In this document: positions 34,614-55,677 of the stretch, piece by piece
How the letters are laid out: each line of letters starts with the position of its first letter
How positions within the stretch are numbered: position 1 is the stretch's first letter
Source of the DNA: Pseudomonas sp. DTU_2021_1001937_2_SI_NGA_ILE_001
GTDB taxonomy: Bacteria > Pseudomonadota > Gammaproteobacteria > Pseudomonadales > Pseudomonadaceae
NCBI RefSeq assembly: GCF_032463525.1
Contig: NZ_CP135971.1
Coordinates: forward strand, 2,666,001 to 2,730,000
Direction: 5' to 3'
DNA: 64,000 nucleotides
Notes under the pieces: model-generated
The model's input: the letters and a program-made list of their open reading frames with translations, nothing else
What the model was told of the DNA's origin: nothing
Database searches by the model: none
Translations under genes and position numbers: made by a program

Positions 34614-34661
34614 TGAACTGCCCCCAAGAAGTTGGAGATTAATCCAACCCTTGGGGGTGTT

Positions 34662-35183: not shown

Positions 35184-35185
35184 TC

Positions 35186-37623: not shown

Positions 37624-39858
37624 TCAGGCGCCCCGCGCACGGCGCAGGCTGCCCATGACCGAGGCCAGGGCGCGGTCGAACAGCAGGGTATCGTCGAGAA
37701 TGCGGATCGAGCCGCGACGAAATTCGACTGCCAGCCCCATGCGGGTCTTTTCCAGGACCTTCATGCCGGTGCGGTTGACGAAGATATAGCGCCCGCCCGG
37801 CTCGACGATGGCGGCCAGCTTGCAGCGCAGCTTGTGCTCCTCGTCTTCCTGAATCTCCACCCAGCGCCCGGGGGTCAGCTGGTCAGCCTTGAGCAAGCCT
37901 GGGTCGTCGTCGGGCAGTTGCATGGCCGGCTCGTGCAGAGGGTGTTCGTCCGGCGCGATCAGCACGATCTCCTCGACCACATCGACCATCGACGGCCCTG
38001 GCGCATCGCTTGCCACCGGGGTGTCATCCACACCGTCCTGTTGCCGCGACAGACGCTGGAAAGCCTGCACATGCAGCACTTCCAGCTGACTGAAGAATTC
38101 ACTGGTGGCGAATGGGTCGAAGGCCGACGCGGCCAGCCCCTCACGCAGGACCTTGAGCAGGCCGGGCACCAGTTCCAGCAGGCGCTGGCAGGCCTGCGGC
38201 TCGTCATGCGGCTCGACGCTCCAGATCAGGTCGTCCACCGCATCCAGGCCGGCCTGCCACTCCAGCGAATCCTCGCCGTGCTTGAGGCAGGTCAGCAACA
38301 GCACCTTGCTCCAGGCTTCCTGCAGCAGGCGCACCACCACTTCCGGCAGGGTCTTGCCCAGCAGGCGATGGTTGAGTTCCTGCTGCACGCGCTGGCGGGC
38401 CAGCTCGGCTCGGGCGCGTCCCTCTTCGGCATCGCGGGTGCGCTGCTCCAGCAGCTCGCTGCGGCGCCGTTCGTCGCTGGTGAAGGCCAGGAAGTCGGCC
38501 AGCAGCTCGGCGAAGATTTCCGTGTCGTCGACGAAATCGTTGAGCAGGCGCTGGACGATCTGCTCGACCCGCAGGTACAGCGAGTCCCGCTGGTAGTCGT
38601 CGCGCCCGCCCCAGCCCAGGGCGGCCGAGGCGATTTCGTTGAGCAGGCGGCGCGCCGGATGGCTGCCACGGCTGAAGAAGCTTTTGTCGATGACCGCGAC
38701 CTTGAGCATCGGAATCTGCAGGCGCGCGATAAGGGCACGCAGCGAGGCCGGCAGATTGCGGTCGTCGAGGATGAATTCGAAGAGCATGGCGACCAGATTG
38801 ATCACGTCCTCATCGCCGCCATGCACGATGCGCGACTTGCCGCTGCGCACACTGACCCGGGTCAGCAGTTGCTCGAGCTGCTGGCGCAGGTCGAAATCCT
38901 GGACTTCTTCGGACGACGGTACGTATTGCTGCAGGTGCGACAGCAGGCGCAGCAGGTCCTGGCTGGAAATCGGCCGCACTTCGGCGTTCGGCTCGTGGCG
39001 CGGCGCCACGCGCCCGCGCAGGTGGGTCAGCAGCGCCTGCATGGACTCGAAGACTTCCTGCACGCTCTGGTCGAGCTTTTCGGCGACCTGGGCCAGCGCC
39101 GGGTCATCGATCCGGGGTGCCTGGCGGCTCGGCTGGGCACGGTCGCTGACGCGTCGACTGGGCAGGGCCTTCATGTCCGGCAGGATGCCGGTGGCGATGA
39201 GCAACTGGTTGGCTTCGCCATACAGCTGGTCGGCGCAGGCCAGGACGTATTTGTCGAACAGCTTGAGAATGATCAGCTTGACGCGGATCTCGACCCCCAG
39301 GCTGCGCGCCGACTGCAGGAAGAAGTCGCACAGCAGCATCGGCCCCAGCGGGTTGCTCTGGTCGGTCATGGCCTGGGGCACCAGCTCGTTGAGGCGCGCG
39401 GTAAGCTGCCCCAGGGCCAGGCCGTCGCGGCTCATGACCTTGGCGACCATCGCATCGACCGCGACAGTGCGCTCCAGGTCGTCGTTGTGCACCAGCTCCA
39501 GCTTGTCGAAGGACACCGGTCCCGGCAGCACCGGCTCGGCGACCTGGTACTGGCCCAGCACCAGGAACGCCTCGTAGAACTTGTCGATGAACGCGCGCTC
39601 GATGCTCTTGCGCTTGAGGCGCAGGTCACGCATCGCTTCGAAGAAGAGATTCTGCTCGGTGTTGTTGTGCGCCCGGTCGGCCATCTCGAAAAGCGTATCG
39701 TCGGCATTGTCGAACAGCACCTGGAGGGCGTCCTTCAGCTGCTGCGCGGCCTTGTCGCGCACCTGCAACAACACGACGGGCAAGCGGGCCAAGGGCGTCT
39801 GGGTCGCCTGTGCAGGGACCGCCTTGCTCAATGGCACTACCTTATCGTCGCTCTGCAT
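37624..39858 (-). CDS. DUF1631 family protein (744 aa)
   Basis: A large cytoplasmic, mostly helical protein of the DUF1631 family. No signal peptide or membrane segment is seen. The N-terminal half has the family segment FDNADDTLFEMADRAHN; a highly charged helix lies in the middle (TSDERRRSELLEQRTRDAEE); the last 100 residues (from about 640) look like a small beta-barrel (RWVEIQEDEEHKLRCKLAAI, then YIFVNRTGMKV) recalling PilZ-type folds. Function unknown. I chose ATG 39858, preceded by GGAGGGGTG. It is divergent from nadC. Confidence 0.85.
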   Translation of the reverse strand: MQSDDKVVPLSKAVPAQATQTPLARLPVVLLQVRDKAAQQLKDALQVLFDNADDTLFEMADRAHNNTEQNLFFEAMRDLRLKRKSIERAFIDKFYEAFLVLGQYQVAEPVLPGPVSFDKLELVHNDDLERTVAVDAMVAKVMSRDGLALGQLTARLNELVPQAMTDQSNPLGPMLLCDFFLQSARSLGVEIRVKLIILKLFDKYVLACADQLYGEANQLLIATGILPDMKALPSRRVSDRAQPSRQAPRIDDPALAQVAEKLDQSVQEVFESMQALLTHLRGRVAPRHEPNAEVRPISSQDLLRLLSHLQQYVPSSEEVQDFDLRQQLEQLLTRVSVRSGKSRIVHGGDEDVINLVAMLFEFILDDRNLPASLRALIARLQIPMLKVAVIDKSFFSRGSHPARRLLNEIASAALGWGGRDDYQRDSLYLRVEQIVQRLLNDFVDDTEIFAELLADFLAFTSDERRRSELLEQRTRDAEEGRARAELARQRVQQELNHRLLGKTLPEVVVRLLQEAWSKVLLLTCLKHGEDSLEWQAGLDAVDDLIWSVEPHDEPQACQRLLELVPGLLKVLREGLAASAFDPFATSEFFSQLEVLHVQAFQRLSRQQDGVDDTPVASDAPGPSMVDVVEEIVLIAPDEHPLHEPAMQLPDDDPGLLKADQLTPGRWVEIQEDEEHKLRCKLAAIVEPGGRYIFVNRTGMKVLEKTRMGLAVEFRRGSIRILDDTLLFDRALASVMGSLRRARGA

Positions 39859-40132
39859 CACCCCTCCAGAAGGATTCAACCATGAACACCATGTACTGCC
39901 TCATGGCGCGTTCTGCGCTCGCAACCCATACGTCAAATGTGTGACGTCAATTACAAGTCGGCATTATCTTGCAAAAACCATTACCAATTCCATAGGGGAA
40001 TCCCTGCCCGCGGAGATAGACCACAAGAATCCCGTTCTGTCGCATCCGGCGCTCTAAAACCGACAGAATGTCGTTCTTGAATAAAATGCCAGGCTGCTCT
40101 GGCCATGGGTGGGTTGCGGCGGTGGCGTACCT

Positions 40133-42181: not shown

Positions 42182-43426
42182 ATGTTGCTGACCCAGGGAC
42201 AACGCGTCCCGCTCTCCAGCCTGATCGATGGCCAGGAACTGACCCTGGCCATCGCCATTGACTCGCCCCATGTCATCGATCACGTGTGCTTTGGCCTCGA
42301 TGCCAATGGCAAGCTCTCCGACGACCGCTACATGATTTTCTTCAACCAGCCGTCCAGCCCCTGTGGCAGCCTGCAATTGCAGGGCAATGCGTTCCACATC
42401 CGCCTGAACGGACTGCCAGCCACCCTCGAACGCCTGGTGTTCACCGCCTCCATCGACGGCCACGGCACCCTGCGCGACATCCGCGCCAGCCATTTCAGCG
42501 TCCGTGGCAGTGGTGGCGAGGCCGCACGCGGCGAATTCTCTGGTGCCAGTTTCGCCGCCGAGAAAGCCATCATGGTCGCCGAACTCTATCGGCGTAACGG
42601 TGAGTGGCGCCTGGCGTCGAACCTGCAAGGCTACAACGCCGGCCTGCAAGCGTTGGTGGAACACTTTGGCGGCGAGGTCATCGATGCACCCGCACCAGAG
42701 CCCGAACCGGCCGCTGCGCCGCGTATCTCGCTGGAAAAGAAAATCGCCGAGGCCGCCCCGCAACTGGTCAGCTTGGCCAAGAAAGCACAGATCAGCCTGG
42801 AGAAAGCCCGGCTCACCGATACCCGCGCGCGGGTCGGCCTGGTGCTGGATGCCTCTGGCTCGATGAACGGCCAGTATTCCAGGGGCCATGTGCAGGAAGT
42901 GGTCAACCGCCTGCTGCCCCTGGCCGTGCACTTCGACGATGACGGCGCGCTGGACTGCTGGGCCTTCGCCGCCCGCTCGACGCAACTGAGCCCGGTCACC
43001 CTGAGCAACTTCCGCGACTTCATCCAGACCGACCAGGGCGGCTGGCGCGACTGGAAGCTCGGCGCCAGGGTCAATAACGAACCCGAGGTGATGCGCCGGG
43101 TCATCGACTTCTACAAGGAGTCGGGTGACCGCACGCCGGTGTACATACTGTTCATCAGCGACGGCGGGGTTTCGCAAAACCGCGAGATCATCAAGCTGAT
43201 GACCGAAGCGGCGCGGCTGCCGATCTTTTGGCAGTTCGTCGGGCTGGGCGGCCGGGGCTACGGCATCCTGGAAAAGCTCGATGACATGGACGGCCGGGTG
43301 GTGGACAACTGCAACTTCTTCGCCATGGACCGCCTTGACGAGATCAGCGAAGAGAAGCTCTACGACCTGCTGATGGAAGAGTTCCCCAGCTGGCTCAAGG
43401 CCGCCAAGGCAGCCGGCATCCTTTAG
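42182..43426 (+). CDS. TerD-like/vWA protein (TerF/TerY type)
   Basis: A 414-residue fusion. The first 165 residues are a divergent TerD fold (FGLDANGKLSDDRYMIFFNQ, MVAELYRRNGEWRLASNLQG). After a linker with ISLEK repeats, a von Willebrand factor A domain follows with MIDAS motif DASGSM (residues 223-228) and the downstream IDRDGGVSQ-like region (LFISDGGVSQNREI). vWA proteins of Ter systems are thought to bind metals and nucleate complexes. It follows the GYF2-AIM24 gene by 42 nt and faces terE across a shared terminator. Confidence 0.88.
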   Translation: MLLTQGQRVPLSSLIDGQELTLAIAIDSPHVIDHVCFGLDANGKLSDDRYMIFFNQPSSPCGSLQLQGNAFHIRLNGLPATLERLVFTASIDGHGTLRDIRASHFSVRGSGGEAARGEFSGASFAAEKAIMVAELYRRNGEWRLASNLQGYNAGLQALVEHFGGEVIDAPAPEPEPAAAPRISLEKKIAEAAPQLVSLAKKAQISLEKARLTDTRARVGLVLDASGSMNGQYSRGHVQEVVNRLLPLAVHFDDDGALDCWAFAARSTQLSPVTLSNFRDFIQTDQGGWRDWKLGARVNNEPEVMRRVIDFYKESGDRTPVYILFISDGGVSQNREIIKLMTEAARLPIFWQFVGLGGRGYGILEKLDDMDGRVVDNCNFFAMDRLDEISEEKLYDLLMEEFPSWLKAAKAAGIL

Positions 43427-43445
43427 GCAACGCGTTCATCCGACC

Positions 43446-43478
43446 AAAAAAAACGCCATCCGAGGATGGCGTTTTTTT
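43446..43478. terminator. Bidirectional terminator between vWA gene and terE
   Basis: An A8 run, the stem CGCCATCC/GGATGGCG and a T7 run form a symmetrical terminator in the 66-nt convergent gap. It closes both the plus-strand gene pair and the minus-strand Ter operon. Confidence 0.93.
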
Positions 43479-43492
43479 GTAGCGGATCGGGA

Positions 43493-44071
43493 TCAGCCGA
43501 TCGACACACCGTGGGCTTCAGCCAGTGGCTTCAGGCCGCCAGCAAAACCTTGGCCGATGGCCTTGAACTTGAACTCGTCGTTGTGACGGTACAGCTCGCC
43601 AAAGATCATCGCGGTTTCGGTCGAAGCGTCTTCGGACAGGTCGTAACGGGCGATTTCCTTGCCGTCGGCCTTGTTCAGTACGCGGATGTAGGCGTTGGAC
43701 ACCTGGCCGAAGCTCTGCTTGCGGGCATCGGCGTCGTGGATGGTCACGGCGAACACCAGCTTCTTCACTTCGGCAGCCAGGCCGGTCAGCTTGACCTGCA
43801 CCGACTCGTCGTCGCCTTCGCCCGCACCGGAGCGGTTGTCGCCCAGGTGTTCCACCGAGCCATCGGCAGATTTCTTGTTGTTGTAGAAAATGAAGCCGGC
43901 GTCGCTCAGCACCTTGCCGTTTTCACCGACGATGAACACCGAAGCGTCGAGGTCGAACTCGGTGCCGTCGGTGACGCGTGGGTCCCAGCCCAGGCCCACG
44001 GTCACTTCGGTCAGGCCAGGGGCTTCTTTGGACAGCGAGACGTTACCGCCTTTGCTCAGACTTACAGCCAT
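43493..44071 (-). CDS. terE: TerD-family protein TerE
   Basis: A 192-residue TerD-domain protein with calcium-binding-type acidic motifs ([20 protein letters not shown]) and the family GWDPR start. TerD proteins bind Ca2+ and are thought to sense or buffer stress at the membrane together with TerC. It is closely similar to the next gene (terD), a likely tandem duplication, and is the last gene of the Ter operon before the shared terminator. The naming within the paralogue pair is by order only. Confidence 0.93.
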
Positions 44072-44110
44072 TTGCGTATTTTCCTTTTTAGAAATCAGTG
44101 AAAGGCCGAA

Positions 44111-44686
44111 TCAGAAGTTCAGGCCATAGGAGTTGGCAACCGCACGCAGGCCACCTGCATAGCCCTGGCCCACGGCACGGAATTTCCACTCGCCGTTGTT
44201 ACGGTACAGCTCGGCGAACAGCATGGCGGTTTCGGTGGACGCGTCTTCGGCCAGATCGTAGCGGACGATCTCGCTGCCGCTCTTCTCGTTGACCACGCGG
44301 ATGAACGAACCGCCAACCTGGCCGAAGTTCTGCTTGCGCGCATCGGCTTCGTGGATGGTCACCACGAAGACGATCTTGTCGACGTCCGCCGGTACACGGG
44401 TCAGGTCGACCTTGATCACTTCGTCGTCGCCGTCACCTGCACCGGTGCGGTTGTCGCCGGTGTGCTCGACCGAGCCATCGGCGCTCTTGAGCTGGTTGTA
44501 GAAGATGAAGTCCGCTTCGCTGCGGACCTTGCCGCTGGCACCGAGCAGGAAGGCACTGGCATCCAGGTCGAACTCCTGGCCGTCAGTGGCACGAGGATCC
44601 CAGCCCAGGCCGATCAATACGTTGGTCAGGCTAGGGTCGGTCTTGGACAGCGAAAGGTTGCCGCCTTTTTGCAGAGTCAAAGCCAT
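44111..44686 (-). CDS. terD: TerD
   Basis: A 191-residue TerD-domain protein with the same acidic calcium-site segments ([28 protein letters not shown]) and the [18 protein letters not shown] segment found in all family members here. It lies 27 nt after terC and 39 nt before terE. The Ter genes confer tellurite, phage or colicin tolerance in some bacteria; the role in this strain is inferred from the family. Confidence 0.95.
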
Positions 44687-44713
44687 GATGGGTCGTCTCC
44701 TTTATTCCGATGT

Positions 44714-45751
44714 TTATGCGTCTTTCGCCGGTTCTTCTTCCTTGGCAGGGAAGATCACGCTGGCGACGATACCGATAGCCAGCACGACCATTACCACGAT
44801 CAGGCTGGTGTTGGGGCTGATGCTGAAACCATGATGGAACAGGTGATCGGTAGCGTTCAGGCCCAGCTTGAAGGCAATGAAGAACAGCAAGGCGATGACC
44901 GCTTTTTCCAGATGCACCAGGTAACGCTTGAGGGCTTCGAGCACGAAGTACAGGGTCCGCAGGCCGAGGATCGCGAACAGCATCGCCGAGTAGACGATCA
45001 GCGGCTCACGGCTGACGGCGATGATGGCCGGCACGGAGTCGAAGGCGAACAGCACGTCGGAGATTTCCGCGACCACCACGCAGAGGAACAGCGGCGTGGC
45101 GAACAGCGCGCCCTTGGCCGCCAGGGTGATGCCGGCGTTTTCCGGTTTCTTGATCTCCTGCTCGAGCACCGAACGGCGCACGAAGAAGTTATGACCATGC
45201 AGCTTCGGCCAGACCGGGAACAGCTTCTTGGCGAAGCGGTAGGCCATGTGCTGCGAGTAGTCGACCTCTTCGTCGTCATCGTCGCCGGCACGCAGCATCA
45301 TCACGGCGGTCCAGGCCACGATCAGCGCGAAGATCACTTCGACCCACGGCCCGAGGGCCAGCAGGCTGGTACCGATGGCCACGAAGATGCCGCGGAACAC
45401 GATGGCCCCCATGATGCCCCAGTACAGCACGCGGTGACGCAGGCCATCGGGAATCTTGAACCAGGCGAACAGGGCCATGAACACGAACAGGTTGTCGACG
45501 CTGAGGACCTTCTCCAGCGCATAGCCGGTGAAGAACAGCGAAGCCACTTCCGAGCCGTGCTGGAAGTAGAGGAACACGCCGAAGGCTACGGAAATGGCCA
45601 CCCAGAAGATCGACCACAACGACGCCTGCATCAGGGTGATGGGCTTGTTGCCGCGGTGCGAGACCAGGTCGATGATCATCGCGCCGACGGCCAGAGCGAT
45701 GAACACGGTCATCGTGAGCGGCGGGAAGCCAATAGCAGTGCTGCTTTCCAT
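44714..45751 (-). CDS. terC: TerC family integral membrane protein
   Basis: A 345-residue membrane protein with about nine hydrophobic segments. The TerC signature is clear in the segment LEKVLSVDNLFVFMALFAWF and in the second half VVVAEISDVLFAFDSVPAII, with membrane-embedded acidic residues that may bind metal. TerC proteins work in metal (Mn2+) efflux or metallation of exported proteins and form a complex with TerB and TerD. It is embedded in the operon 26 nt after terB. Confidence 0.96.
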   Translation of the reverse strand: MESSTAIGFPPLTMTVFIALAVGAMIIDLVSHRGNKPITLMQASLWSIFWVAISVAFGVFLYFQHGSEVASLFFTGYALEKVLSVDNLFVFMALFAWFKIPDGLRHRVLYWGIMGAIVFRGIFVAIGTSLLALGPWVEVIFALIVAWTAVMMLRAGDDDDEEVDYSQHMAYRFAKKLFPVWPKLHGHNFFVRRSVLEQEIKKPENAGITLAAKGALFATPLFLCVVVAEISDVLFAFDSVPAIIAVSREPLIVYSAMLFAILGLRTLYFVLEALKRYLVHLEKAVIALLFFIAFKLGLNATDHLFHHGFSISPNTSLIVVMVVLAIGIVASVIFPAKEEEPAKDA

Positions 45752-45777
45752 TTAACAGAATTCCTGAAGGGTAAAGG

Positions 45778-46227
45778 TTACAGGTCGAAATCGGCCGGGC
45801 TCAGGCCCAGCTCGCGACAGATGAGCCGGCAGACCTGACGCTCGCCTTCGTCGAAGCTGCCATCGGCACCGCCAATCGCGCAGCAGACCCGCACCAGCAG
45901 CCGCGCGGCATCTTCCTTGTGCTTGATCTTGCCAATGGTCTTGAGCGCCTCGGCGCGGCCGATTTCGACGTCGAACTCGAACTTGGCACAGGCATCCTGG
46001 AAGGCCTTGATGACATCTTTCATGTCGAAGGCTTTCAGTTCCTGGGAGTTCTGGATGAAACCGGCCATTTTCTGTTTCTCGGCCGAGCTGATGTCGCCAT
46101 CCGCCGCCGCCACCAGGGCACAGCCGGACACCACAGCGTCGAGAAACTCACGGTTCTTGAACTTCGAAACTTCAGCGGCCAGCTTGTCACGGGCGGCCGT
46201 TGCATTGGATTTCAACCAGTCCAGCAT
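45778..46227 (-). CDS. terB: TerB
   Basis: A 149-residue all-helical TerB with the acidic metal-binding segments VAAADGDISSAEKQKM and GADGSFDEGERQVC, typical of the family. TerB is a cytoplasmic partner of TerC and is thought to link membrane metal sensing to the TerD proteins. Located between terA and terC with gaps of 66 and 26 nt. Confidence 0.95.
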   Translation of the reverse strand: MLDWLKSNATAARDKLAAEVSKFKNREFLDAVVSGCALVAAADGDISSAEKQKMAGFIQNSQELKAFDMKDVIKAFQDACAKFEFDVEIGRAEALKTIGKIKHKEDAARLLVRVCCAIGGADGSFDEGERQVCRLICRELGLSPADFDL

Positions 46228-46293
46228 TTCTTCCCCCTTGGGACGGCCACGCCGCCCCGTATCTATCGTTATAGGTTCACTGACAACGGCTGT

Positions 46294-47481
46294 TCATTTC
46301 GAGCCGGCCGCCCAACGCATGCCCCAACCATAGGCCTTGTCCATGTGACTGTGGCCGTTGTGGAAATCCACGCGCCGCGTCACCTTCACCGCTCCGTTGT
46401 CGTTCTCCAGCAGGGCGATGGCGCACATGCCCTGGCGCCCACCCTCTTCGTTGAGGCGCACTTCGATGGGCGGCTGGCCCGGCACGTGGATGGTGATCAC
46501 CCCGTCGGTTTCCTTCCAGTTGGGTGCGCCCTCGTAGATGAAGGCGTAGATCAGGATGCGGCGCATCTTGTTCCAGTGGCTGCCGTTGATATGCAGCCAC
46601 TCGCCTTCACTGACCGAACCGGTACGGTCGTCGCCCATGAGCTTGATATAGGGTTCCTCATGCAGGGAACCAAAGGCATTGCCCAGGGCCTGCACGGCGC
46701 CTTTGTAACCGTCCTGCAGCTCGAACAGGCAACCGACGTCGAGGTCGATGGCGGTGTTCTTGCGCATCGAAAAGAAACCGCCCTTGTTTTCACTACGGCG
46801 GTTCCAGTTCAGGTTGACGCGAATTTCGCCGAACCCGGCACTGGTCTTTTCCAGGCTGATGGACGAGCGAGTCTTGTCCAGGGTGATCTTGCTCAGGCTG
46901 ACGGTCGCCTTGGCCGGCGGGGCCGGTTCGGCAACCGGGGCAGGCGCCGGCGGCGCCACCGCAGGCGGCGCCTCGGGCGCAGCAACCTCGACGCCGAAGT
47001 TCTTCGCCAGCGGCTCCAGGCCGCCGGCAAAGCCCTGGGCCACGCAGCGGAACTTCCAGGCGCCCTGGCGCAGGTAGAACTCGCCAAGGATCAGCGCGGT
47101 CTCCTGCATGCCGGCCGTGGCAATCGGTGCCTCAAGGCCGCCGCTGATAGTGACCACCAGCCGCGACACCTTGTCGAAGGCCGCCTTGTTTTCGTAGATG
47201 GTCGCGGTCAGTGCAACCTTCTCGATGGCTGCGTCGAGCCGCGACGGATCGAGGCTGAAGCGCGCCTTGCCCACGGCGCTGTCGGTCAGCTGCAACGCTC
47301 CGCCACTGACGCTGGTCTGGCCGTAGAAGCACATGTCCTGGTCACCCCGTACCTTGCCGGCACTGGTCAGCAGGAAAGCGGAAACATCGATATCGGCGCC
47401 GGCCAGCGGCGAGTAGTCGACTTCGACGGTCAACGGGCCGGTGGCCACCGCGGCATTGGCGCCAGGAACGAGCAGGGTCAT
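46294..47481 (-). CDS. terA: TerA-like protein (two TerD-type domains)
   Basis: A 395-residue protein with two TerD-like beta domains, about 1-160 (ADIDVSAFLLTSAGKVRGDQ) and about 200-395 (KNTAIDLDVGCLFELQDG), joined by a proline/alanine-rich linker. This is the TerA arrangement. The second domain has the acidic DLDVG calcium-site segment. It overlaps terZ by 4 nt and precedes terB by 66 nt. Confidence 0.93.
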   Translation of the reverse strand: MTLLVPGANAAVATGPLTVEVDYSPLAGADIDVSAFLLTSAGKVRGDQDMCFYGQTSVSGGALQLTDSAVGKARFSLDPSRLDAAIEKVALTATIYENKAAFDKVSRLVVTISGGLEAPIATAGMQETALILGEFYLRQGAWKFRCVAQGFAGGLEPLAKNFGVEVAAPEAPPAVAPPAPAPVAEPAPPAKATVSLSKITLDKTRSSISLEKTSAGFGEIRVNLNWNRRSENKGGFFSMRKNTAIDLDVGCLFELQDGYKGAVQALGNAFGSLHEEPYIKLMGDDRTGSVSEGEWLHINGSHWNKMRRILIYAFIYEGAPNWKETDGVITIHVPGQPPIEVRLNEEGGRQGMCAIALLENDNGAVKVTRRVDFHNGHSHMDKAYGWGMRWAAGSK

Positions 47482-48068
47482 GCGCGGATCGCTCCGACCG
47501 CCAGGTCAACCAGATCATCGGCAGTGCGGCCGTTGGTGACCTGGCCCACTGCGGTGAAGTCCCAGCCGCTGCCGGTACGGGTCAGGTACGACATGATCAC
47601 GCCGGTATGGTGACCCTTCTCGGACAGGTCGAAGCGGCCCAGCTCGTTGCGGGTCGCGTCGTCGACGATACGGCAGTAGGCGTTGGCGACCTTCTCGAAG
47701 GTCTGCCCGGTGAAGGAATTGACGGTGAACACCAGGTACTTGACGGTACCCGGCAGGCGCTCAAGGTCGACACGGATGGTTTCGTCGTCGCCGTCGCCCT
47801 CACCGGTACGATTGTCGCCGGAATGCTGAATGGCACCGTCACGCGACTGCAGTTGGCGAAACCACACCACGTCCAGCGGCTTTTTCTCCGCATCGAGCAT
47901 GATGCACGAGGCATCCAGGTCGATCTCACCGCCGCCGCCCAGCAGCTTGCCGAAGAAGCCGGTGGCTTTCTCCGGATCCCAACCCAGCCCCATGCTGACC
48001 TTCTTCAGACCGCTGCCAGCGGTTTTCTCCAAAGAGATCGTCTGGTTCTTTGCCAAAGTCAGTGCCAT
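47478..48068 (-). CDS. terZ: TerZ-like TerD-family protein
   Basis: A 196-residue TerD-domain protein. The glycine-rich insertion GFFGKLLGGGGEIDLDAS before the acidic site is the mark of the TerZ branch. It is the first of the classical ter genes in this operon, following the HAD gene by 46 nt, and is translationally overlapped with terA. Confidence 0.92.
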   Translation of the reverse strand: MALTLAKNQTISLEKTAGSGLKKVSMGLGWDPEKATGFFGKLLGGGGEIDLDASCIMLDAEKKPLDVVWFRQLQSRDGAIQHSGDNRTGEGDGDDETIRVDLERLPGTVKYLVFTVNSFTGQTFEKVANAYCRIVDDATRNELGRFDLSEKGHHTGVIMSYLTRTGSGWDFTAVGQVTNGRTADDLVDLAVGAIRA

Positions 48069-48114
48069 TTTTTCGCTTCCTGTGAATAGGTCGTCGGATT
48101 AAAAGCGTGAAGCC

Positions 48115-48843
48115 TCACCGCGATGGCTCATCAATGCCATCCCGATTGTGTAACTTGGCGTTAATCACCGGCTTGGCCGGGCCCTTGTAGCGCCCGCGTC
48201 GCCAGGCCGGATGGAAGTGCCGCCAGTGCGCGTCCTGGGCGGCGGCGAGCAGTTCATGGTCGCCACTGGTGTCGCCCCAGGCGCGCACGCGGAACTGGCT
48301 CAAGGGGCCGTACACGCCTTCCAGGCGGCTGACCTTGGAGTCGCGCCGGCAATTGGTGCCCTCGATCAGCCCGGTCAGCTTGCCATCGATGACTTCCAGG
48401 CTGGTGCCGATCAGCTCGACACCCAGGCGATTGGCGAATGGCTGCAGGACGATTTCCGGCGAGGCCGAACAGAGCGTCACGATGGCACCCTTTTCCAGCT
48501 CGGCGGCCACCGAGACCAACGCCGTGGGGCGCATCAGCCGCTCCCACCAGGCATCGCAGAAGGCCTGCGCCTGTTCTTCGACCCAGCGCGCTTCCACACC
48601 GCTGAGGAAGGCCTTGATCAGCCGGGCCTTCAGCTCGTCACGGGTCACGCGCCGGGCCAGGTAGCCCAGGCTGGGCAGCACCATGCGCGCCATGCGCCGG
48701 GAAAAGGTGCGCTGGCCGAAGGCGAATTTGAGAAACGGCACGAAGCTGTCGTGCCGGGTCAAGGTGCCGTCGAAATCGAACACCGCGAGCAGGCGTTCCT
48801 GCACTTCTACTTCGAGATCGGGTTCTATCACTGGCTCTGTCAT
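48115..48843 (-). CDS. HAD-superfamily hydrolase (HAD-IB type)
   Basis: A 242-residue HAD phosphatase with motif I FDFDGTLTRHD (nucleophile Asp), motif II TLCSASPE, and motif IV GDTSGDHEL. It resembles HAD-IB enzymes such as phosphoserine-phosphatase relatives. In Ter systems HAD enzymes belong to a module predicted to make a nucleoside-like compound; the exact substrate is unknown. It begins 1 nt inside the preceding lyase-like gene (TAATG overlap). Confidence 0.88.
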   Translation of the reverse strand: MTEPVIEPDLEVEVQERLLAVFDFDGTLTRHDSFVPFLKFAFGQRTFSRRMARMVLPSLGYLARRVTRDELKARLIKAFLSGVEARWVEEQAQAFCDAWWERLMRPTALVSVAAELEKGAIVTLCSASPEIVLQPFANRLGVELIGTSLEVIDGKLTGLIEGTNCRRDSKVSRLEGVYGPLSQFRVRAWGDTSGDHELLAAAQDAHWRHFHPAWRRGRYKGPAKPVINAKLHNRDGIDEPSR

Positions 48844-49793
48844 TAGCTAACTGCCTCAGCGAGTCGGATGCTGGCATCCACGATCGAAGCCGGTGCCGGC
48901 AGCACGCCATGCCATTTGGCGCGCTCCATGATGTGGGTTGCCCATTTGTGGTGTGTGGCGGGTTCGCACATCGCATCGTTGTACTTGAACACCGCCGCGG
49001 CCGAAGAGTTCAATATCTGCCGCGCAGAATTCACATCATCCAGGCTCACCCGCAAGGCGTTCTGGATGATCGTGACCTGGGAAGGATGAATGGCGGTCTT
49101 GCCCACCAGCCCATGAGAAATATCCAGTGCCAGTTCCTGTTCGAGAATGTCCGGCGTGGCCAGTTGCTCGAACACCGGCGCGGTGAGGGCAAAGCCCAGC
49201 GCGCCCATGACCCCGGCCAGCATCGGGATGACATAGCCCATGGGCGTCGCGTAGAGAGTCAAGGCCGGGTTGCGACGCAACCCCAGGCAACCCATCAGGT
49301 CGTTGCCACCGATGCGCAAGGCGACGATGCGCGGCTCCAGGCTGCCCTTGAGCGCCTGCCCCAGCTCGGTCATGGCCATCGGGTTGAACACCTCGGCCGT
49401 TTCCAGGGTCGGCATCAGCGCCAGCGCGGGGTTGCCGACCGCCGCCTCCCAGTGGCGCAGATTACTCAATGCCAGCTTGGGCAGCACGAAGCCATCGACA
49501 TGACGGATCAGCGGCCAGTCGTTGAGCTGCGCGGCCATCTGCGCATCACGGGGGCGCACGAACAGCAGCGGCCCGCTTTCCGGGCGCCCGCCCACCGACT
49601 CGATGCGCAGCAGCACCTCGCGCAGGTTGCCCAGCGCAGCGTCGACGTCCAGCGGTGCTACTGCATCTTCCAGGCACACCACCAGCGAGCGCAACTCGGT
49701 GAGTTTCTTGCCGAAGACCACATCGAGGATGTCGTCACGGGTCGCCGGCATGTAGAGCGTAGCGCCAAGGGCGTAAGGCGAGATTCGGGTCAT
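48843..49793 (-). CDS. HpcH/HpaI (citrate-lyase beta-like) enzyme of the Ter module
   Basis: A 316-residue TIM-barrel protein related to citrate lyase beta subunit/malyl-CoA lyase. The segments LVVCLEDAVAP and MPTLETAEVF carry the Mg-binding acidic residues, and IHPSQVTIIQ is the conserved C-terminal family segment. It would form or cleave a C-C bond on a carboxylate; the real substrate is not known. It overlaps the StiP gene by 4 nt and the HAD gene by 1 nt. Confidence 0.88.
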   Translation of the reverse strand: MTRISPYALGATLYMPATRDDILDVVFGKKLTELRSLVVCLEDAVAPLDVDAALGNLREVLLRIESVGGRPESGPLLFVRPRDAQMAAQLNDWPLIRHVDGFVLPKLALSNLRHWEAAVGNPALALMPTLETAEVFNPMAMTELGQALKGSLEPRIVALRIGGNDLMGCLGLRRNPALTLYATPMGYVIPMLAGVMGALGFALTAPVFEQLATPDILEQELALDISHGLVGKTAIHPSQVTIIQNALRVSLDDVNSARQILNSSAAAVFKYNDAMCEPATHHKWATHIMERAKWHGVLPAPASIVDASIRLAEAVS

Positions 49794-50890
49794 TGGCCAA
49801 GACTCCGGATGATGGTGGCCGCCCGGTACGGACCGAGGGCCGCGCCGACCTGCTCCACGGGCACCCCGGCCCGCTCGGTCAGGTGCAGCAGCAGTTGCAC
49901 GTCGCTGTCGTTCAGGTCACGGACCAGCACATGATCGGGCACCCGGCGCATCACGGCGCGGGTGGCCTCGGCAATGCCTGGCTTGATGCGATTGGGGTTG
50001 GTGATGTCGAAGCGCTGCGCCAGCCCGGCGACCACCTGGGTGGCCGCCGCCTGCAGTTGTTCGCGCTGGGTGACGCTCCAGGGCTGCGCAGCGGCGACGT
50101 CGGTCAGCTCATGGCGCAGACCGTCGATCTGCTCGATGAAGCGGGCGGTGACATCGTAGGGCTGCAGGTGCTCGTAGACCACACAGCCATGCAGGCTGCC
50201 GGGCTCGGACCAGATGGACCGCGACACCAAGCCGGACACCGTGGCGCCGAGGATGCCCGAGGGGATCAGCCAGTCCTGCGTCGAAGCCGCCAGCCAGGCC
50301 TGCCCGCAAGGGTCGGCGAGCACCACCAGGCGCGGTGCCGTGGTGAAGCGCGGGTCACCGGCCAGACTGCGGCGCACCTCACCGGCGATGGCGCCCTTGC
50401 CGGTCCAGCCGTCGACGAACACGATGCGCTCGGCGCCGTGGGCCTGGATGATCGCGTCCAGAGCGACAGGGTCGATGCCCCGGTCGCGGATGATACTGAT
50501 GCCATAGTGATGAGTCTCGCGACCCAGGCCCTGCAGGGCCCGGCGCAGCAGCACGCCCAGTGGCAGCCCGGCGCGCACGAAGGACACCAGGACGATTTCG
50601 CCCTCGCACGCGACATTCAGGGCCTTGGCCAGGGCCTGCACATCGCCGGCCATGCGCAGGCCGTTCTGCGTCATGGCGCGCTGGAACAGTTGCCGGTGCG
50701 CGTCGCTGGGCGCCTGCTCCAGGCTGATCATTTCCGAGTAATGCTTCTGCCGGGTCTGGATCAGGCGCTCCTTTTCTTCGACATCGGTCACCTCGATGTC
50801 GACGCTGCGCAGCAGGAAGTGCACATCGTCAGCCAGATAGCTGCCGCTGCCGACGGTGTTCAGGCCCCGCACCCGGCTATTCACCGGCAA
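49790..50890 (-). CDS. StiP/PRTase-like protein of the Ter module
   Basis: A 366-residue protein of the family annotated as cysteine protease StiP. The sequence, however, reads as a phosphoribosyltransferase fold: SFVRAGLPLGVLLRRAL (residues 103-119) and the PRPP-loop-like VFVDGWTGKGA (157-167). The C-terminal 80 residues resemble a Pelota/L7Ae RNA-binding domain, as described for this family. It overlaps the HAD gene upstream by 14 nt and the lyase downstream by 4 nt. PRTase rather than protease activity is my preferred reading. Confidence 0.85.
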   Translation of the reverse strand: MPVNSRVRGLNTVGSGSYLADDVHFLLRSVDIEVTDVEEKERLIQTRQKHYSEMISLEQAPSDAHRQLFQRAMTQNGLRMAGDVQALAKALNVACEGEIVLVSFVRAGLPLGVLLRRALQGLGRETHHYGISIIRDRGIDPVALDAIIQAHGAERIVFVDGWTGKGAIAGEVRRSLAGDPRFTTAPRLVVLADPCGQAWLAASTQDWLIPSGILGATVSGLVSRSIWSEPGSLHGCVVYEHLQPYDVTARFIEQIDGLRHELTDVAAAQPWSVTQREQLQAAATQVVAGLAQRFDITNPNRIKPGIAEATRAVMRRVPDHVLVRDLNDSDVQLLLHLTERAGVPVEQVGAALGPYRAATIIRSLGQ

Positions 50891-51635
50891 CCTCCTGAAA
50901 GGCCTTGGCCAGCTGGCTGCGAGCCGGGGTCGCCCACCAGTGGCATTCGCCCATGAAGCCCAGATCAGTCAGGCTGTCACCAAACCCCAGCACGGGGCGC
51001 TCGCCATGTACCGCCCGGTCGCGGCGCAACCATTCCTGCACCGCATGACGCTTGTCCAGCCCGGCCGGCAGGAACGCCAGGTTGTTGCCATTTCCATGCA
51101 CGTGCATGCCGTCGAGCAGGCCGCGCTCGCGGACCTCGGCCAGGACCCGCTGCAGGATGCCGTCGTCGCTCTCGTTGTGCTTGGTGACCACGTAGTGGAA
51201 CAGCCCCGCCTCCTCGACCACCCAGCCTCGCAGCGAATGCCCCAGTGCCTGGCCAATCGCCAGGGTCGCGGCGCTCAGCTCGTGCAGGCGCGTCTGGTAG
51301 GCGGCCAGGGTCTCGCTCATCTGCGCACGCCAATCCTGGTCCAGGCGGCCGTCAGCGCCGAGTATCACGCCGCCGTGCGAACAGATGGCTCCGCAGGCAA
51401 ACGGCAGTTGCACCCGGCTGCAGGCCTCGACACTGCGCGCGGTGACCGGCACCACATCGGCATGCGCCAGCAGCCAGCCGACGAAGGCGTGCTGCACACC
51501 GGTCATGTAACCGTTGGGCTGGCCGGCCACATCCACCGTGGCCGGGTGTTTCTCGCTGCCTGGCGGCATCTTGCGCGCGGTCTGGAACAGGGTGTCATCC
51601 AGGTCCACGAGGATCAGCGGGCGGACTTCATTCAT
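50877..51635 (-). CDS. HAD-superfamily hydrolase (Cof/HAD-IIB-like)
   Basis: A 252-residue HAD enzyme with motif I LVDLDDTLFQTARK and motif IV GFGDSLTDLGFMGE. The cap region lies between the motifs, as in the type II sugar-phosphatase branch. It is the second HAD enzyme of the operon and overlaps the genes on both sides (8 and 14 nt), a sign of tight coupling. It probably dephosphorylates an intermediate of the predicted nucleoside-like pathway. Confidence 0.87.
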   Translation of the reverse strand: MNEVRPLILVDLDDTLFQTARKMPPGSEKHPATVDVAGQPNGYMTGVQHAFVGWLLAHADVVPVTARSVEACSRVQLPFACGAICSHGGVILGADGRLDQDWRAQMSETLAAYQTRLHELSAATLAIGQALGHSLRGWVVEEAGLFHYVVTKHNESDDGILQRVLAEVRERGLLDGMHVHGNGNNLAFLPAGLDKRHAVQEWLRRDRAVHGERPVLGFGDSLTDLGFMGECHWWATPARSQLAKAFQEVAGE

Positions 51636-52761
51636 CGCAGATCACCTCGGCCTGCAGGGTTTCGACCAGTTCGGGCGCGACGGCGCGGGCCGGCGTCTCG
51701 GTGCAGATCAGCACCCGGTCGAACTGGCCGGGCCGCACGTTGTAGAGAAAGTTGGGAATGCCCAGGCCGTAGTTGTCGGCGAACGACAAGGCATGGCCGA
51801 TGGCATGCCCCAGGGCGATGGGAGAACGGCTGGTGGAGCCGAAATGCACGTCGGCACCCTGCTGCTCCAGGCGCTCGGCGAGCAGGAATGGGCGCCAGAC
51901 GAACTCGCTGGTACCCACCACCAGCACGCGCTCGCCCGGCTCGACACGCAGCTGCGGCGCCAGGCTGTCGGCCACCGCACGCACCCCCAAACGGCCCCAG
52001 TCGTTGCGCGCCGATACCGGCCAGTCGCCGCGGGCCACGGTACCGACCTCGGGCATGTCCGGCAGCGGCGCCTGCGGGTCTTCATCGAAACGATAGGCGC
52101 CCTGCAACAGCGAAACCTGCTCGGTCGCGACATTCATGTTGCGGCTGACCGCCCCCGCTGACCAGTCGGTCAGCACACAGGTCACCAGCCGTTCGATACG
52201 TGTCAGGCCCGCCTCGGCCAGGGCGCGGTGCAGGTTGATGAAGGTCTTGCCGGTCGAGGCTTCGTCATCCACCAGCACCAGCGAGCGGGCGGCGAACATC
52301 CGTTCGCGCAGGGCCGGGTCGGTGGGCAGGTGAATCAGATGCGCACTGGCGTGGCTGTGCTCCTCTTCGAAACGGGCGAACACCTCGGTGCCCGTCGGGT
52401 GCCGGGTGCTGACCAGGTACAGGGTGTCGTCGCGCTCGCGGCTGTATTCACGATGCACACCGGCGCCCAGGCCTACGGCGGTTTCGGCCATGCCGATGAA
52501 CAGCACCGGCCCGGGCAGGTCGGTCGGGATGCGCTGCGCCAGAGCCTGGAAGCTCTCGCGCATCACCGAAGGACGCACCGGAATATGCCGACCCAGTACC
52601 CGAGAAACGAACAGGAAGGCACGCTTGGGATTGCGCCGCTCGGCAAAACCGAACAACGCCTCGGGTGCGACGGCGCTGGCTTGCACGGTTACGTCGAGGC
52701 AACCACGCAACAACTCGGCACGCAGTCGGGTCGGAGGAAGCAGTGCCTGGCGGCTGTTCAT
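51628..52761 (-). CDS. PRTase-TRSP domain protein
   Basis: A 377-residue protein. The first 220 residues are a phosphoribosyltransferase with the PRPP loop VLVDDEASTGKT (residues 162-173). The remainder is a TRSP domain (VRPGQFDRVLICTETPA near its end), found only in such Ter-linked proteins. It is the second PRTase-type protein in the cluster, which supports a pathway that builds a ribosylated metabolite. It lies 57 nt downstream of the TerD-protease gene. Confidence 0.87.
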   Translation of the reverse strand: MNSRQALLPPTRLRAELLRGCLDVTVQASAVAPEALFGFAERRNPKRAFLFVSRVLGRHIPVRPSVMRESFQALAQRIPTDLPGPVLFIGMAETAVGLGAGVHREYSRERDDTLYLVSTRHPTGTEVFARFEEEHSHASAHLIHLPTDPALRERMFAARSLVLVDDEASTGKTFINLHRALAEAGLTRIERLVTCVLTDWSAGAVSRNMNVATEQVSLLQGAYRFDEDPQAPLPDMPEVGTVARGDWPVSARNDWGRLGVRAVADSLAPQLRVEPGERVLVVGTSEFVWRPFLLAERLEQQGADVHFGSTSRSPIALGHAIGHALSFADNYGLGIPNFLYNVRPGQFDRVLICTETPARAVAPELVETLQAEVICDE

Positions 52762-52818
52762 CGAGTGATTCCTGGTTGGACGAAAGACGAGTGTGTCGAG
52801 GCGCGCCTGAGAAAACGG

Positions 52819-53961
52819 TCAGCCACGCGAGGCTTCGACAAGCCATAACGACGATTGTGCGGTACGGGAGATTTCCGTCGTGCTGTAGGTTCTGTCCGGA
52901 CGCAACAGGGTGGTCGGCACCCGGCAGGCCTGCAGGAAAGCCACTAGCAACGCAGACTTCACCGCGAAGTTCATGTTCTGTGCATCCGGCACGCTGGAGG
53001 TGACCATACCCACCACTGCCCCGCCGCTGTCGAACAGCGGGCTGCCACTGGAACCCGGCTGGATCGGTGCGGTGAACTGCAACAGGCTGGCATCGCTGTG
53101 CAGGCCGAACAGGCTGGAAACTCCGCCTTGGGTCACCTGCAGGTTGCCGCCGGAAATCGACGCCAACGGGTAACCCAGCGCCACCACGTTATCCCCCGCC
53201 TCGCAGCCGGGGCCTTCGCGAAACGGCAGGGCCGCCAGCGGTGCGGCACCCTGCACCCGCAGCAGGGCAATATCGTTGCGCCGGTCCACCACCACCGGCT
53301 CGACCTGATAACGCCCGTCCAGCGAGCTGATGTACAGCACGTTCATGTCTTCGATGACATGCGCACAGGTCATCAGGTGCGCCGGGCCGACCACGAAGGC
53401 GGTGCCGGTGGCCGACTGATGACGCTGGCCGTCGCGCGGCCCGCCATCGCCGCGCCGGCGCGGGTGGCCATCGGCAATGTCCAGGCCGATCTTGCGCCCG
53501 AACGCCGCCAGGCCGTAGGCCGAGCCTTCGCTGAGGGCGCGGAATTTCCATTGTTCGTTGCGGCGGTAGAACTCGCCGATGATGATCGATGCCTCGCCAT
53601 GCTCGCGCAGGTCGATGCGGTATTCGATGTCGCTGTCGACCTGCAGGCACAGGCTGCCGGCTTCGCTGATCGGCCCCGCCGCCGCGTAGACATAGACCAT
53701 CAGCAGCACGCGGTCGCTGCCGCCGGGCAAGTCGGCCAGGCGCAAGGTGCAGCCGACGTTCTGCGGGCCGCCACTCCACGCCATCCAGGGCTGCTCGTGA
53801 TGCAGCAGGGCCGGATCCCCGGTGGGCTGGCGCTTTTCGTTGACCGGCAGCAGCGCGACGGCCGCGTAGTCACCGAAGATCGAAGCCTTCCCCGTGTCCA
53901 GATTCCAGGAACACTGTGAGTTGACCAGGGCAACGTTGACACCAGGCGCCAGCACTTTCAT
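52819..53961 (-). CDS. TerD domain fused to a trypsin-like serine protease
   Basis: A 380-residue fusion. Residues 1-165 form a TerD domain (IIIGEFYRRNEQWKFRALSE is the typical C-terminal segment). A basic linker (PRRRGDGGPRDGQRHQ) leads to a trypsin/DegP-like domain with His201 (TCAHV), Asp230 (RRNDIALL) and Ser305 (GSSGSPLF), so the triad is complete. No signal peptide or membrane segment is seen, so the protease should act in the cytoplasm. It lies between the ATP-grasp and PRTase-TRSP genes (gaps 50 and 57 nt). Confidence 0.9.
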   Translation of the reverse strand: MKVLAPGVNVALVNSQCSWNLDTGKASIFGDYAAVALLPVNEKRQPTGDPALLHHEQPWMAWSGGPQNVGCTLRLADLPGGSDRVLLMVYVYAAAGPISEAGSLCLQVDSDIEYRIDLREHGEASIIIGEFYRRNEQWKFRALSEGSAYGLAAFGRKIGLDIADGHPRRRGDGGPRDGQRHQSATGTAFVVGPAHLMTCAHVIEDMNVLYISSLDGRYQVEPVVVDRRNDIALLRVQGAAPLAALPFREGPGCEAGDNVVALGYPLASISGGNLQVTQGGVSSLFGLHSDASLLQFTAPIQPGSSGSPLFDSGGAVVGMVTSSVPDAQNMNFAVKSALLVAFLQACRVPTTLLRPDRTYSTTEISRTAQSSLWLVEASRG

Positions 53962-54011
53962 GCCGGTTCTCCTTGAAGGGCTGAAGGTCGATGATTAATA
54001 GCAAAAATCTA

Positions 54012-55019
54012 TTATTGCAGCGAGGGGCGCGAACATACCGCAACGGTGATGGGCTTCACCCGAATATCCGGTAACCAATGTGTTTCCGGTTCTTTCAGAC
54101 CCAGGCGCCGGGTGGCGAAAATCCCCGGCAGGTTCACGCCAGCCTGTTGGGTATAGCCGATGCCCCCCGAATAGCGCGGGTTGATTTCCAGCAGGTGCGG
54201 CAGGCCCTGCGGGTCATCGCGGGTCTGTACGTTGACCAGGCCGTCGCAGCCGAAATGCTCGGCGGCGCGTACGGCCAATTGCACGGCAGCCCCTTCGCGC
54301 TCGAACGTCTGGTGCAGACCCTGTTTGCGCCGCCCGACCGCCGCGACCACCCGCCCCTGCTCGCAGACGATGTCCACCGAGCATTCGCTGCCGGGCATGT
54401 ACGGCATCACCAGCAGCGCCGGGCGCTCGCCGGGCTGGCGATAGGCATGCAGGTAGGCTTCGAAGGAGGTTTCCCGGGCATCGGGGTTGGCGAAACAGCG
54501 AAAGGCATCCACACCCTCCTTGAAGCGCCAGAAGCCCTGGCCGTAGATACCCACCGTGGGCTTGACGCACACCGCCCCCTGCGCACTGAGGGTGGCGTAA
54601 GCCTGCTGCAGCTGCTCGGCATCGCTGACCGTGATCGCGGGTACACAAGCCAGCCCTGCCTGCTCGGCGGCGGCGGTGAAACGGCTCTTGTCGTCTACCC
54701 TGTCGAAGGTCTCGATCGACAGCCCTCCGGTGACCAGGTCGATACCGGCATCGACGAAGCGCTGCCGATGGCGCTCGTAAGACGCCCCCATGCGTCCGGC
54801 GACCACCACCCTGACGCCCAGCGGCCGGGCGTTGTCGATGACCCAGTCGATGCGCTCGGCGTCGTCCTGCGGCTCCAGCAGAGCCAGGTCGGCCTGACCG
54901 GTGATCTCGCCGCGCGGCTGGCGGTGCGAGGCAACGATGCGCAGCGAGGCTGGCAGCGCCGCCCGTGCCCCCATGATGACTTCACGCTGGCTGGACTGCC
55001 CTTCAAGGAACCAGATCAT
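54012..55019 (-). CDS. ATP-grasp enzyme of the Ter module
   Basis: A 335-residue ATP-grasp ligase. The ATP-binding lysine segment VCVKPTVGIYGQGFWRF and the metal-binding LLEINPRYSGGIGYT are present. Such enzymes join a carboxylate to an amine or thiol, or add other groups, with ATP. It is the first gene of the minus-strand Ter operon, and the promoter should lie in 55020-55128, which it shares with the divergent DUF1523 gene; no convincing -35/-10 pair was found there. Confidence 0.9.
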   Translation of the reverse strand: MIWFLEGQSSQREVIMGARAALPASLRIVASHRQPRGEITGQADLALLEPQDDAERIDWVIDNARPLGVRVVVAGRMGASYERHRQRFVDAGIDLVTGGLSIETFDRVDDKSRFTAAAEQAGLACVPAITVSDAEQLQQAYATLSAQGAVCVKPTVGIYGQGFWRFKEGVDAFRCFANPDARETSFEAYLHAYRQPGERPALLVMPYMPGSECSVDIVCEQGRVVAAVGRRKQGLHQTFEREGAAVQLAVRAAEHFGCDGLVNVQTRDDPQGLPHLLEINPRYSGGIGYTQQAGVNLPGIFATRRLGLKEPETHWLPDIRVKPITVAVCSRPSLQ

Positions 55020-55128
55020 GCAACTCTCCGTCTAGGGATGGTCTTGTCGAATTTTGTAATAACTGTTTTGCTTCAAGCGCGCTGCCGATTAGGGCAAAGT
55101 CACGCAATTTTCATAGAGGAACAATGGC

Positions 55129-55677
55129 ATGAAGTGGCTCAGGCGGTCGATCTGGCTGGTGGTGATTCTGGTCCTGACAGCGGGCGGGCTTGGCCTGCAC
55201 TACCTGCTGCCGCGGCATGACGTGGTGTTGATCACCGGGGTTGAAGTCAAGCGCATGGACGCCGATGGCGTGATCAACGCGGAAAACCCGGCCGACGGTC
55301 CGACCCGCGACGTGTATTTCATCAACACCGAAAACCCCGACACCAAGAAAGTGGTGGTGTACCGCAACGAAGACACCGGCTGGAGCTTCCCCTGGTACTT
55401 CAAGTTCGACTCGGCCGACCTGCAGGCCAAGGCTCAGGGCTATTCCCGTGATGCCCAGCAATTGGTGCTGATCCGCTATTACGGGTGGCGTATCCAGATC
55501 TTCTCGGTATTCCCCAACATCACCTCGGTGGAAGCCACCACCAGTCGTGATCAGCCTTTCCCGGTGTTCAACACGATCTTCTTCAGCATCCTGGCACTGC
55601 TGGTGCTGTTCACTGCACTGGCCATCCGTCGTCGCCTGCGCCGGCAGCCACGTGTCGATGGCGTAGTCCGCTCCTGA
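55129..55677 (+). CDS. DUF1523 family membrane protein
   Basis: A 182-residue protein with an N-terminal membrane segment (IWLVVILVLTAGGLGLHYLL), an extracytoplasmic domain with VVLITGVEVKRMDADG and DTGWSFPWYFKFDSADLQ, and a second membrane helix near the C-terminus (TIFFSILALLVLFTALAI) followed by a basic tail. This layout is that of DUF1523. Function is unknown. It is divergent from the ATP-grasp gene of the Ter operon and is a single gene. Confidence 0.88.
   Translation: MKWLRRSIWLVVILVLTAGGLGLHYLLPRHDVVLITGVEVKRMDADGVINAENPADGPTRDVYFINTENPDTKKVVVYRNEDTGWSFPWYFKFDSADLQAKAQGYSRDAQQLVLIRYYGWRIQIFSVFPNITSVEATTSRDQPFPVFNTIFFSILALLVLFTALAIRRRLRRQPRVDGVVRS

Follow-up and report, generated by a model that had tools for sequence, protein, structure and literature searches.

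Gene content and organisation of the ter locus

In the current analysis we have examined a row of genes in Pseudomonas sp. DTU_2021_1001937_2_SI_NGA_ILE_001 that joins terZABCDE to genes for a putative enzyme module dependent on phosphoribosyl pyrophosphate (PRPP). The row lies in a stretch of 64,000 nucleotides (contig NZ_CP135971.1, positions 2,666,001 to 2,730,000), referred to here as the window and numbered from its first letter. Positions 43493-55019 comprise 13 open reading frames (ORFs), all on the minus strand, in the order ATP-grasp ligase, TerD-protease, phosphoribosyltransferase (PRTase) with a TRSP domain (PRTase_2-TRSP, here R1), HAD phosphatase (HAD1), StiP, C-C lyase, a further HAD phosphatase (HAD2), terZ, terA, terB, terC, terD and terE. 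The original prediction, made from the letters of the DNA, had described this order with gaps of at most 66 nt, and the ORFs and their largest gap agree with it. Its inventory of enzymes is borne out by the domains assigned from Pfam and NCBIfam, HAD1 being without a Pfam match.

The locus holds terZABCDE, PRTase_2-TRSP, StiP-PELOTA, C-C_Bond_Lyase, ATPgrasp_Ter and HAD genes together with a nearby TerF-type protein, the components of a Ter locus with a biosynthetic module. Judged by these sequences the row is the known Ter stress-response locus in its Pseudomonas form, here on the chromosome, and its single 13-gene layout is a lineage variant of that locus and not new in kind.

The row opens with an ATP-grasp ligase (54012-55019; PF15632, E 4.5e-43) in which K111, K153, E278, N280 and R282 are kept in all 60 aligned sequences. 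It is followed by a protein (52819-53961) that has an HtrA/trypsin-like serine protease domain (PF13365, Trypsin_2, E 2e-25) and a TerD domain (PF02342) over its C-terminal part. The His-Asp-Ser triad is present, with H201, D230 and S305 in 38 of 38 aligned sequences, and when ten proteins of the locus were compared with a defence library this protein gave the sole match, through its protease domain. R1 (51628-52761) is an APRT-like PRTase with PRTase_2 and TRSP domains, HAD1 (50877-51635) is a HAD-IIB phosphatase, and StiP (49790-50890, the longest start being a TTG at 50890) combines a predicted PRTase fold with a PELOTA RNA-binding domain (PELOTA_1, E 9.8e-26). The citrate-lyase-beta-like C-C bond lyase (48843-49793; PF15617, E 4.1e-100) has R80, E131, D165 and H236 kept in 79 of 79 aligned sequences, and HAD2 (48115-48843; PF12710, TIGR01490) is a HAD-IB phosphatase. 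Sequence searches for solved relatives of the C-C lyase and the ATP-grasp protein gave only weak matches to citrate/malyl-CoA lyases and to carbamoyl-phosphate-synthase-like proteins.

The ter genes proper are terZ (47478-48068), terA (46294-47481), terD (44111-44686; E 1.5e-87) and terE (43493-44071; E 6e-84), all matching PF02342, along with terB (45778-46227; PF05099) and terC (44714-45751; PF03741), which encodes an integral membrane protein. Separated genes along the row stand 50, 57, 46, 66, 26, 27 and 39 nt apart (range 26-66 nt). The original prediction had counted six overlapping junctions; five are found, namely R1/HAD1 (8 nt), HAD1/StiP (14 nt, counted from the longest StiP start), StiP/C-C lyase (4 nt), C-C lyase/HAD2 (1 nt) and terZ/terA (4 nt).

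Conservation of the layout and occurrence in genomes

Genome contigs were scanned with a StiP alignment, the best-scoring 80 of 596 matches were kept and genes were then called around them. The resulting counts are lower bounds, because overlapping ORFs were filtered out and both flanks and contigs are truncated; the set includes near-duplicates (L042, almost the window itself, several Psychrobacter loci and two of P. lundensis), and taxonomic groups were assigned from record titles. HAD1 is present in all 80 loci, StiP in 79, R1 in 78, the C-C lyase in 77, the ATP-grasp protein in 58, the TerD-protease in 34 and HAD2 in 25. R1, HAD1 and StiP are adjacent and in this order in 75 loci, 73 of which continue with the lyase. 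As the ATP-grasp protein and HAD2 are not universal, the core defined by these sequences is R1, HAD1 and StiP, usually with the C-C lyase. In two rhizobial loci (L095, L104) the order is R1-StiP-HAD1, and the stretch covered holds no C-C lyase.

The position of the ter genes varies with the lineage. All of them lie on the strand of the enzyme genes in 30 of the 80 loci and all on the opposite strand in 24, the rest being mixed or without ter genes found. The full 13-gene order is seen in 14 of 17 Pseudomonas loci, and 16 of the 17 have their ter genes on the same strand as the enzymes. Every one of the 23 Enterobacterales loci has the terB/terC block on the other strand; in 16 all ter genes are opposite to the enzymes, and in the other 7 a TerD gene on the plus strand lies further on as well. 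The TerD-protease is found in 14 of 16 Psychrobacter loci and in none of the 23 from Enterobacterales.

Among 99 Pseudomonas genomes HAD1 and StiP, counted at E of 1e-10 or better, share one set of 14, each with 16 copies, and these are again the genomes with a C-C lyase match at E <1e-90. The odds of two such 14-of-99 sets coinciding by chance are 2.6e-17 if the genomes are taken as independent, which they are not. The order kept in 75 of 80 loci and the shared 14 genomes together indicate that the layout is not due to chance. At E 0.001 the C-C lyase family has some match in 54 of the 99 genomes; the weaker ones are assumed to be other CitE-like enzymes. TerD-family proteins are encoded in the 14 genomes and in one more (15 of 99), G063, in which a TerD-family protein stands alone and neither StiP, HAD1 nor a strong match to the C-C lyase occurs. 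A phylum-wide search found StiP over the cut-off in 9 of 299 genomes, the own genome counted, so that the system is sparse. Relatives of HAD1, counted irrespective of Ter context, occur in 2,556 of 72,556 plasmid records, most at <60% identity.

HAD1 and the trehalose annotation

HAD1, having no Pfam match, has none to the OtsB family (PF02358). A phmmer search relates it to P. aeruginosa structures that carry the PDB name 'Trehalose phosphatase' (6d3v, 6d3w and 6cj0; E 2.7e-118), whose near-identical and 93% identical counterparts are plasmid genes in Ter operons. HAD1 is 70-71% identical to these plasmid proteins, which are themselves 93-99.6% identical to 6d3v. The 99.6% match is encoded on the P. 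aeruginosa plasmid p2017-45-137A, between the PRTase and StiP genes of a Ter operon; 115 further plasmid records match the 6d3v sequence at 90-95%, and the one of these that was read has the full operon. In L040, the plasmid copy closest to the solved structure, IS1182-family insertions lie within the TerD-protease gene and terA, and the R1, HAD1 and StiP genes are annotated whole. In HAD1 and its relatives D11 and D13 are kept in 82 of 83 aligned sequences and K195, D220 and D224 in 83 of 83; we take these residues to be the HAD active-site motifs.

A P. aeruginosa 'extra-chromosomal TPP' (trehalose-6-phosphate phosphatase) has been used as an enzyme, and passages of that study name Cys85 and Cys231 as specific cysteines (PMC6838324). 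In the two P. aeruginosa plasmid HAD1 proteins, positions 85 and 231 hold the only cysteines. Because of this fit, it is well supported at the sequence level that the assayed protein belongs to the family of HAD1.

The sources of trehalose-6-phosphate (T6P) were compared in 22 carriers of the operon, comprising the 14 Pseudomonas genomes and 8 from the phylum search, none being selected as an Enterobacterales host. T6P synthase (PF00982) is encoded in 2 carriers, OtsB in 1, and the trehalose phosphotransferase system (PTS; TIGR01992) is over the cut-off in 4. Both known T6P sources, synthase and PTS, are lacking over the cut-off in 16 of the 22, the own genome included, and in 12 of 22 when weak matches to the PTS also count; the own genome has no match to PF00982, TIGR01992 or PF02358. 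Since 16 carriers have neither source, a conserved role of T6P as the substrate of HAD1 is unlikely, and it could be a substrate in some hosts. A literature search gave no paper linking T6P phosphatase to Ter genes among the matches listed; one listed paper, on a Corynebacterium screen, contains both '6-phosphate phosphatase' and 'tellurite resistance'.

StiP and R1 as predicted PRTase-type proteins

R1 has a predicted PRTase fold and a loop of the form DDExxTGxT, which we take to be the PRPP-loop motif of type I phosphoribosyltransferases. Its listed structural matches span mostly residues 3-227 and barely cover the TRSP half, an observation that bears on the idea of a tandem PRTase resembling the double domain of PRPP synthetase.

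For StiP the predicted structure and the structure search both give a PRTase fold. PRTases or PyrR make up nearly all of the 50 listed structure matches; one is a capsule-synthesis enzyme. D160, W162, G164, K165 and G166 are invariant in 50 of 50 diverse homologues, as is R106. None of the cysteines is invariant in this set, the best conserved, C236, being Cys in 40 and Ser in 7. The StiP profile also matches L7Ae proteins among solved structures (E 0.002), and searches by sequence gave no convincing solved relative for either StiP or R1. For StiP these models and alignments speak for a PRTase-like protein and against a cysteine protease.

Comparison with known ter loci

Ter-dependent stress-response systems with a predicted nucleoside-like biosynthesis were reportedly set out by Anantharaman, Iyer and Aravind in 2012. 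The systems are said to include PRTase-type proteins, HADs, an HpcH-like lyase, ATP-grasp proteins and terZABCDEF, as here. The locus described here is a unidirectional 13-gene row with a TerD-protease inside.

The ter locus of Klebsiella shares a putative biosynthetic cluster, terZABCDEF and a conserved HAD with the present one, but passages of the report describe two operons on opposite strands (PMC8115787), whereas here one strand is used. The TerD-protease of the Pseudomonas row is likewise a difference from the Enterobacterales loci. Plasmid ter loci of P. aeruginosa (for example pR11-08, CP137894) share all 13 genes and their order; they are plasmid-borne, whereas the present locus is chromosomal, beside nadC, with TerF and AIM24 genes convergent and a DUF1523 gene divergent.

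The Acinetobacter jumbo phage ME3 has a Ter cluster that shares TerD, R1, a HAD1-like HAD and StiP with the locus (PMC7824862). The HAD of the phage scores 45 bits in a single-sequence search, and the neighbours of the cluster include genes annotated as vWA and membrane proteins. No C-C lyase, ATP-grasp protein, HAD2 or TerD-protease was detected in the 25 kb covered. On these sequences the PRTase, HAD and StiP are the only enzymes kept by the phage, and thus the smallest set.

Junctions, transcription and candidate control sites

A likely bidirectional intrinsic terminator lies between the convergent terE and terF genes (43444-43480). Folding of the hairpin yields -19.4 kcal/mol (z -5.8) on one strand and -19.9 kcal/mol (z -6.1) on the other, and it is flanked by an A-run and a T-run, and for these reasons the minus-strand unit probably ends there. 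A pattern scan of 43300-55300 reported no minus-strand terminator-like site inside the row, a weak result since the same scan missed the strong hairpin after terE. In the same region no sigma-70-like promoter was found, against 1.7 expected by chance, and no Rfam element reached its gathering score in 40000-62000.

In a P. citronellolis study, 500 bp upstream of terZABCDE from a Pseudomonas plasmid served as the promoter in a construct (PMC8779313). On the P. aeruginosa plasmid (pR11-08, CP137894) HAD2 stops 2 nt before terZ, so that such a stretch there would be coding sequence. An internal promoter upstream of terZ is possible.

Upstream of the ATP-grasp gene an intergenic block of 27 nt (55048-55074, minus strand; GAAGCAAAACAGTTATTACAAAATTCG) is unchanged in 7 aligned sequences, 6 of these belonging to loci in which the ATP-grasp protein shares 75-80% identity with that of the window. 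A 20-nt core of the block occurs once in the own genome with up to 3 mismatches permitted, and an 18-nt core occurs in 8 of 132 loci, all from the same genomic site. The block, to which neither a regulator nor a known element is assigned, is a candidate control site, either promoter or operator.

Genomic site and neighbouring genes

The operon is on contig 1, taken as the chromosome, of a two-contig genome of 5.66 Mb. Downstream of terE there follow a convergent terF-type gene for a TerD-vWA protein (42182-43426, plus strand; PF10138, PF02342), a GYF-AIM24 gene and nadC. On the other side a divergent gene (55129-55677, plus strand) encodes a DUF1523 protein (PF07509). Of 57 relatives 36 are Pseudomonas genomes; DUF1523 is present in 3 of these 36, each of which has the operon, and two others of the 36, G009 and G011, carry the operon without DUF1523. 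A homologue is nearby in 11 of the 80 StiP loci. The protein may be an unrecognised Ter accessory, and both it and the TerF-type gene, outside 43493-55019, may belong to the locus.

The same site, with DUF1523, the operon and then TerF-AIM24-nadC, is found in P. ovata, P. caricapapayae, P. graminis, P. amygdali and P. tremae. Six nadC regions were compared as possible empty sites, a comparison only partly informative: one of them, G018, has the operon there, and three have none of the downstream flanking genes tried and a different neighbourhood. The distance from nadC to pnp is ~1.4 kb in G010 and G011 (G011 having its operon elsewhere) versus ~20 kb in the genome of the window. Because nadC is near pnp in these two Pseudomonas without the operon at the site, a block of ~20 kb looks to have been inserted at nadC.

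A transposase pair (34632-36019, plus strand; HTH_Tnp_1 and an rve integrase core), presumably IS3-like, lies in a lower-GC stretch ~4 kb before nadC. A DUF1631 gene of 751 aa (37624-39879, minus strand) has on its complementary strand an open frame of 755 aa without a Pfam match.

Proposed working of the locus and its alternatives

The reading that we favour, with a probability of about 0.6, is that a PRPP-dependent enzyme module and a terZABCDE module are arranged in one row in a chromosomal, Pseudomonas-type Ter stress-response locus. We infer every reaction, the order of the steps and the role as a signal. R1 would move ribose-5-phosphate from PRPP onto an acceptor, and HAD1 would take off a phosphate after this step. 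StiP, as a divergent protein of PRTase fold with a PELOTA domain, might catalyse a second ribosyl-type step or regulate the route. The C-C lyase and the ATP-grasp ligase may add or trim a carboxylic or amide side group, and HAD2 may take off a second phosphate. The product would be a signal or cofactor read by TerD and TerB proteins assembling on TerC, and the TerD-protease, which adjoins R1 in part of the family, might process something in the TerD/TerB-TerC complex. That such loci make a nucleoside-like metabolite is described as a prediction in passages of the Klebsiella report (PMC8115787), and the original prediction was right, as far as passages in citing papers go, to say that the locus fits it. 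Its further proposal of a pathway to a ribosylated metabolite gains from the conserved enzyme order and catalytic residues, and is to be corrected in that the ATP-grasp protein and HAD2 are not universal and that HAD1 belongs to the family of the solved 'trehalose phosphatase'.

Several observations weigh against this scheme. The ATP-grasp protein and HAD2 are not always near StiP, given the lower bounds of 58 and 25 in 80 loci. The PRPP loop of StiP is non-canonical (VDGWTGKG, without the canonical acidic pair), the best-ranked Foldseek matches of StiP include unrelated pyridoxal phosphate (PLP) enzymes with low TM-scores, and a profile comparison of StiP with R1 by hhalign detected no homology (probability 2%); StiP could be non-catalytic. 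In published work, terZ-F of Klebsiella confer tellurite resistance on E. coli MG1655 without the enzymes (PMC8115787), and so do terCD or terCE of P. citronellolis in E. coli (PMC8779313). The link between the two modules is therefore only genetic, and since the enzymes are dispensable for this resistance in E. coli, deletions of the enzyme genes cannot safely be judged by their response to tellurite.

The two modules might also be transcribed separately and merely travel together, the cluster being passive. The opposite terB/terC block in all 23 Enterobacterales loci, the sufficiency of terZ-F for resistance (passages of PMC8115787) and the 500 bp used as promoter upstream of terZ (PMC8779313) agree with such a view, but the shared strand in 16 of 17 Pseudomonas loci, the overlapping or short junctions, the strict co-occurrence of enzyme and ter genes in Pseudomonas genomes and, weakly, the terminator scan make it rather unlikely. 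Separate transcripts alone, which had been offered as a refutation, would not disprove a shared pathway, as the parts lie on opposite strands in Enterobacterales. PyrR, among the nearest folds to StiP, is an RNA-binding regulator of PRTase fold. Along with the PELOTA domain and the L7Ae matches it suggests that R1, HAD1 and StiP could act on RNA and release no free metabolite, StiP binding the RNA and the PRTases transferring or exchanging a ribosyl group. This is quite unlikely, as five of the seven enzyme genes resemble small-molecule enzymes and no RNA target was found, including by the Rfam search of 40000-62000.

Two explanations follow the existing annotations. Were HAD1 a true T6P phosphatase, the operon would include a trehalose or osmostress branch; the PDB entries, the two cysteines shared with the enzyme of PMC6838324 (as its passages give them), and the synthase in 2 carriers with a PTS over the cut-off in four others speak for this. 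The carriers without a T6P source (16 of 22, or 12 when weak matches count), among them the own genome, the missing PF02358 match and the confinement of HAD1, among 99 Pseudomonas genomes, to the 14 with StiP leave it very unlikely. That StiP is a cysteine protease, giving an operon with two proteases, is stated by the Pfam family description and the RefSeq record, and the lack of an invariant cysteine and the dominance of PRTases among the structure matches listed make it highly unlikely.

Returning to the enzyme module as a PRPP-dependent route, a bolder suggestion, which we hold to be unlikely, is that the P. aeruginosa 'trehalose phosphatases' are phosphatases of the Ter metabolite. The two PRTases would build a disaccharide-like ribosylated compound from which HAD1 removes a terminal phosphate, and the triad borne by the phage would be enough. 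If this is true, the reported use of T6P, a two-ring sugar phosphate, hints at the product, which might be a ribosyl-nucleoside or, on RNA held by PELOTA, a ribosyl group.

The current analysis adds the identity of HAD1, a genome-based test that speaks against trehalose, grounds for seeing StiP as PRTase-like and not as a cysteine protease, and the definition of the core triad. The annotations 'trehalose phosphatase' and, for StiP, 'cysteine protease' look misleading. For the search for the predicted metabolite, a core enzyme is now tied to a solved structure and an assayed family and the core is narrowed to three genes, which would lead to a direct substrate screen.

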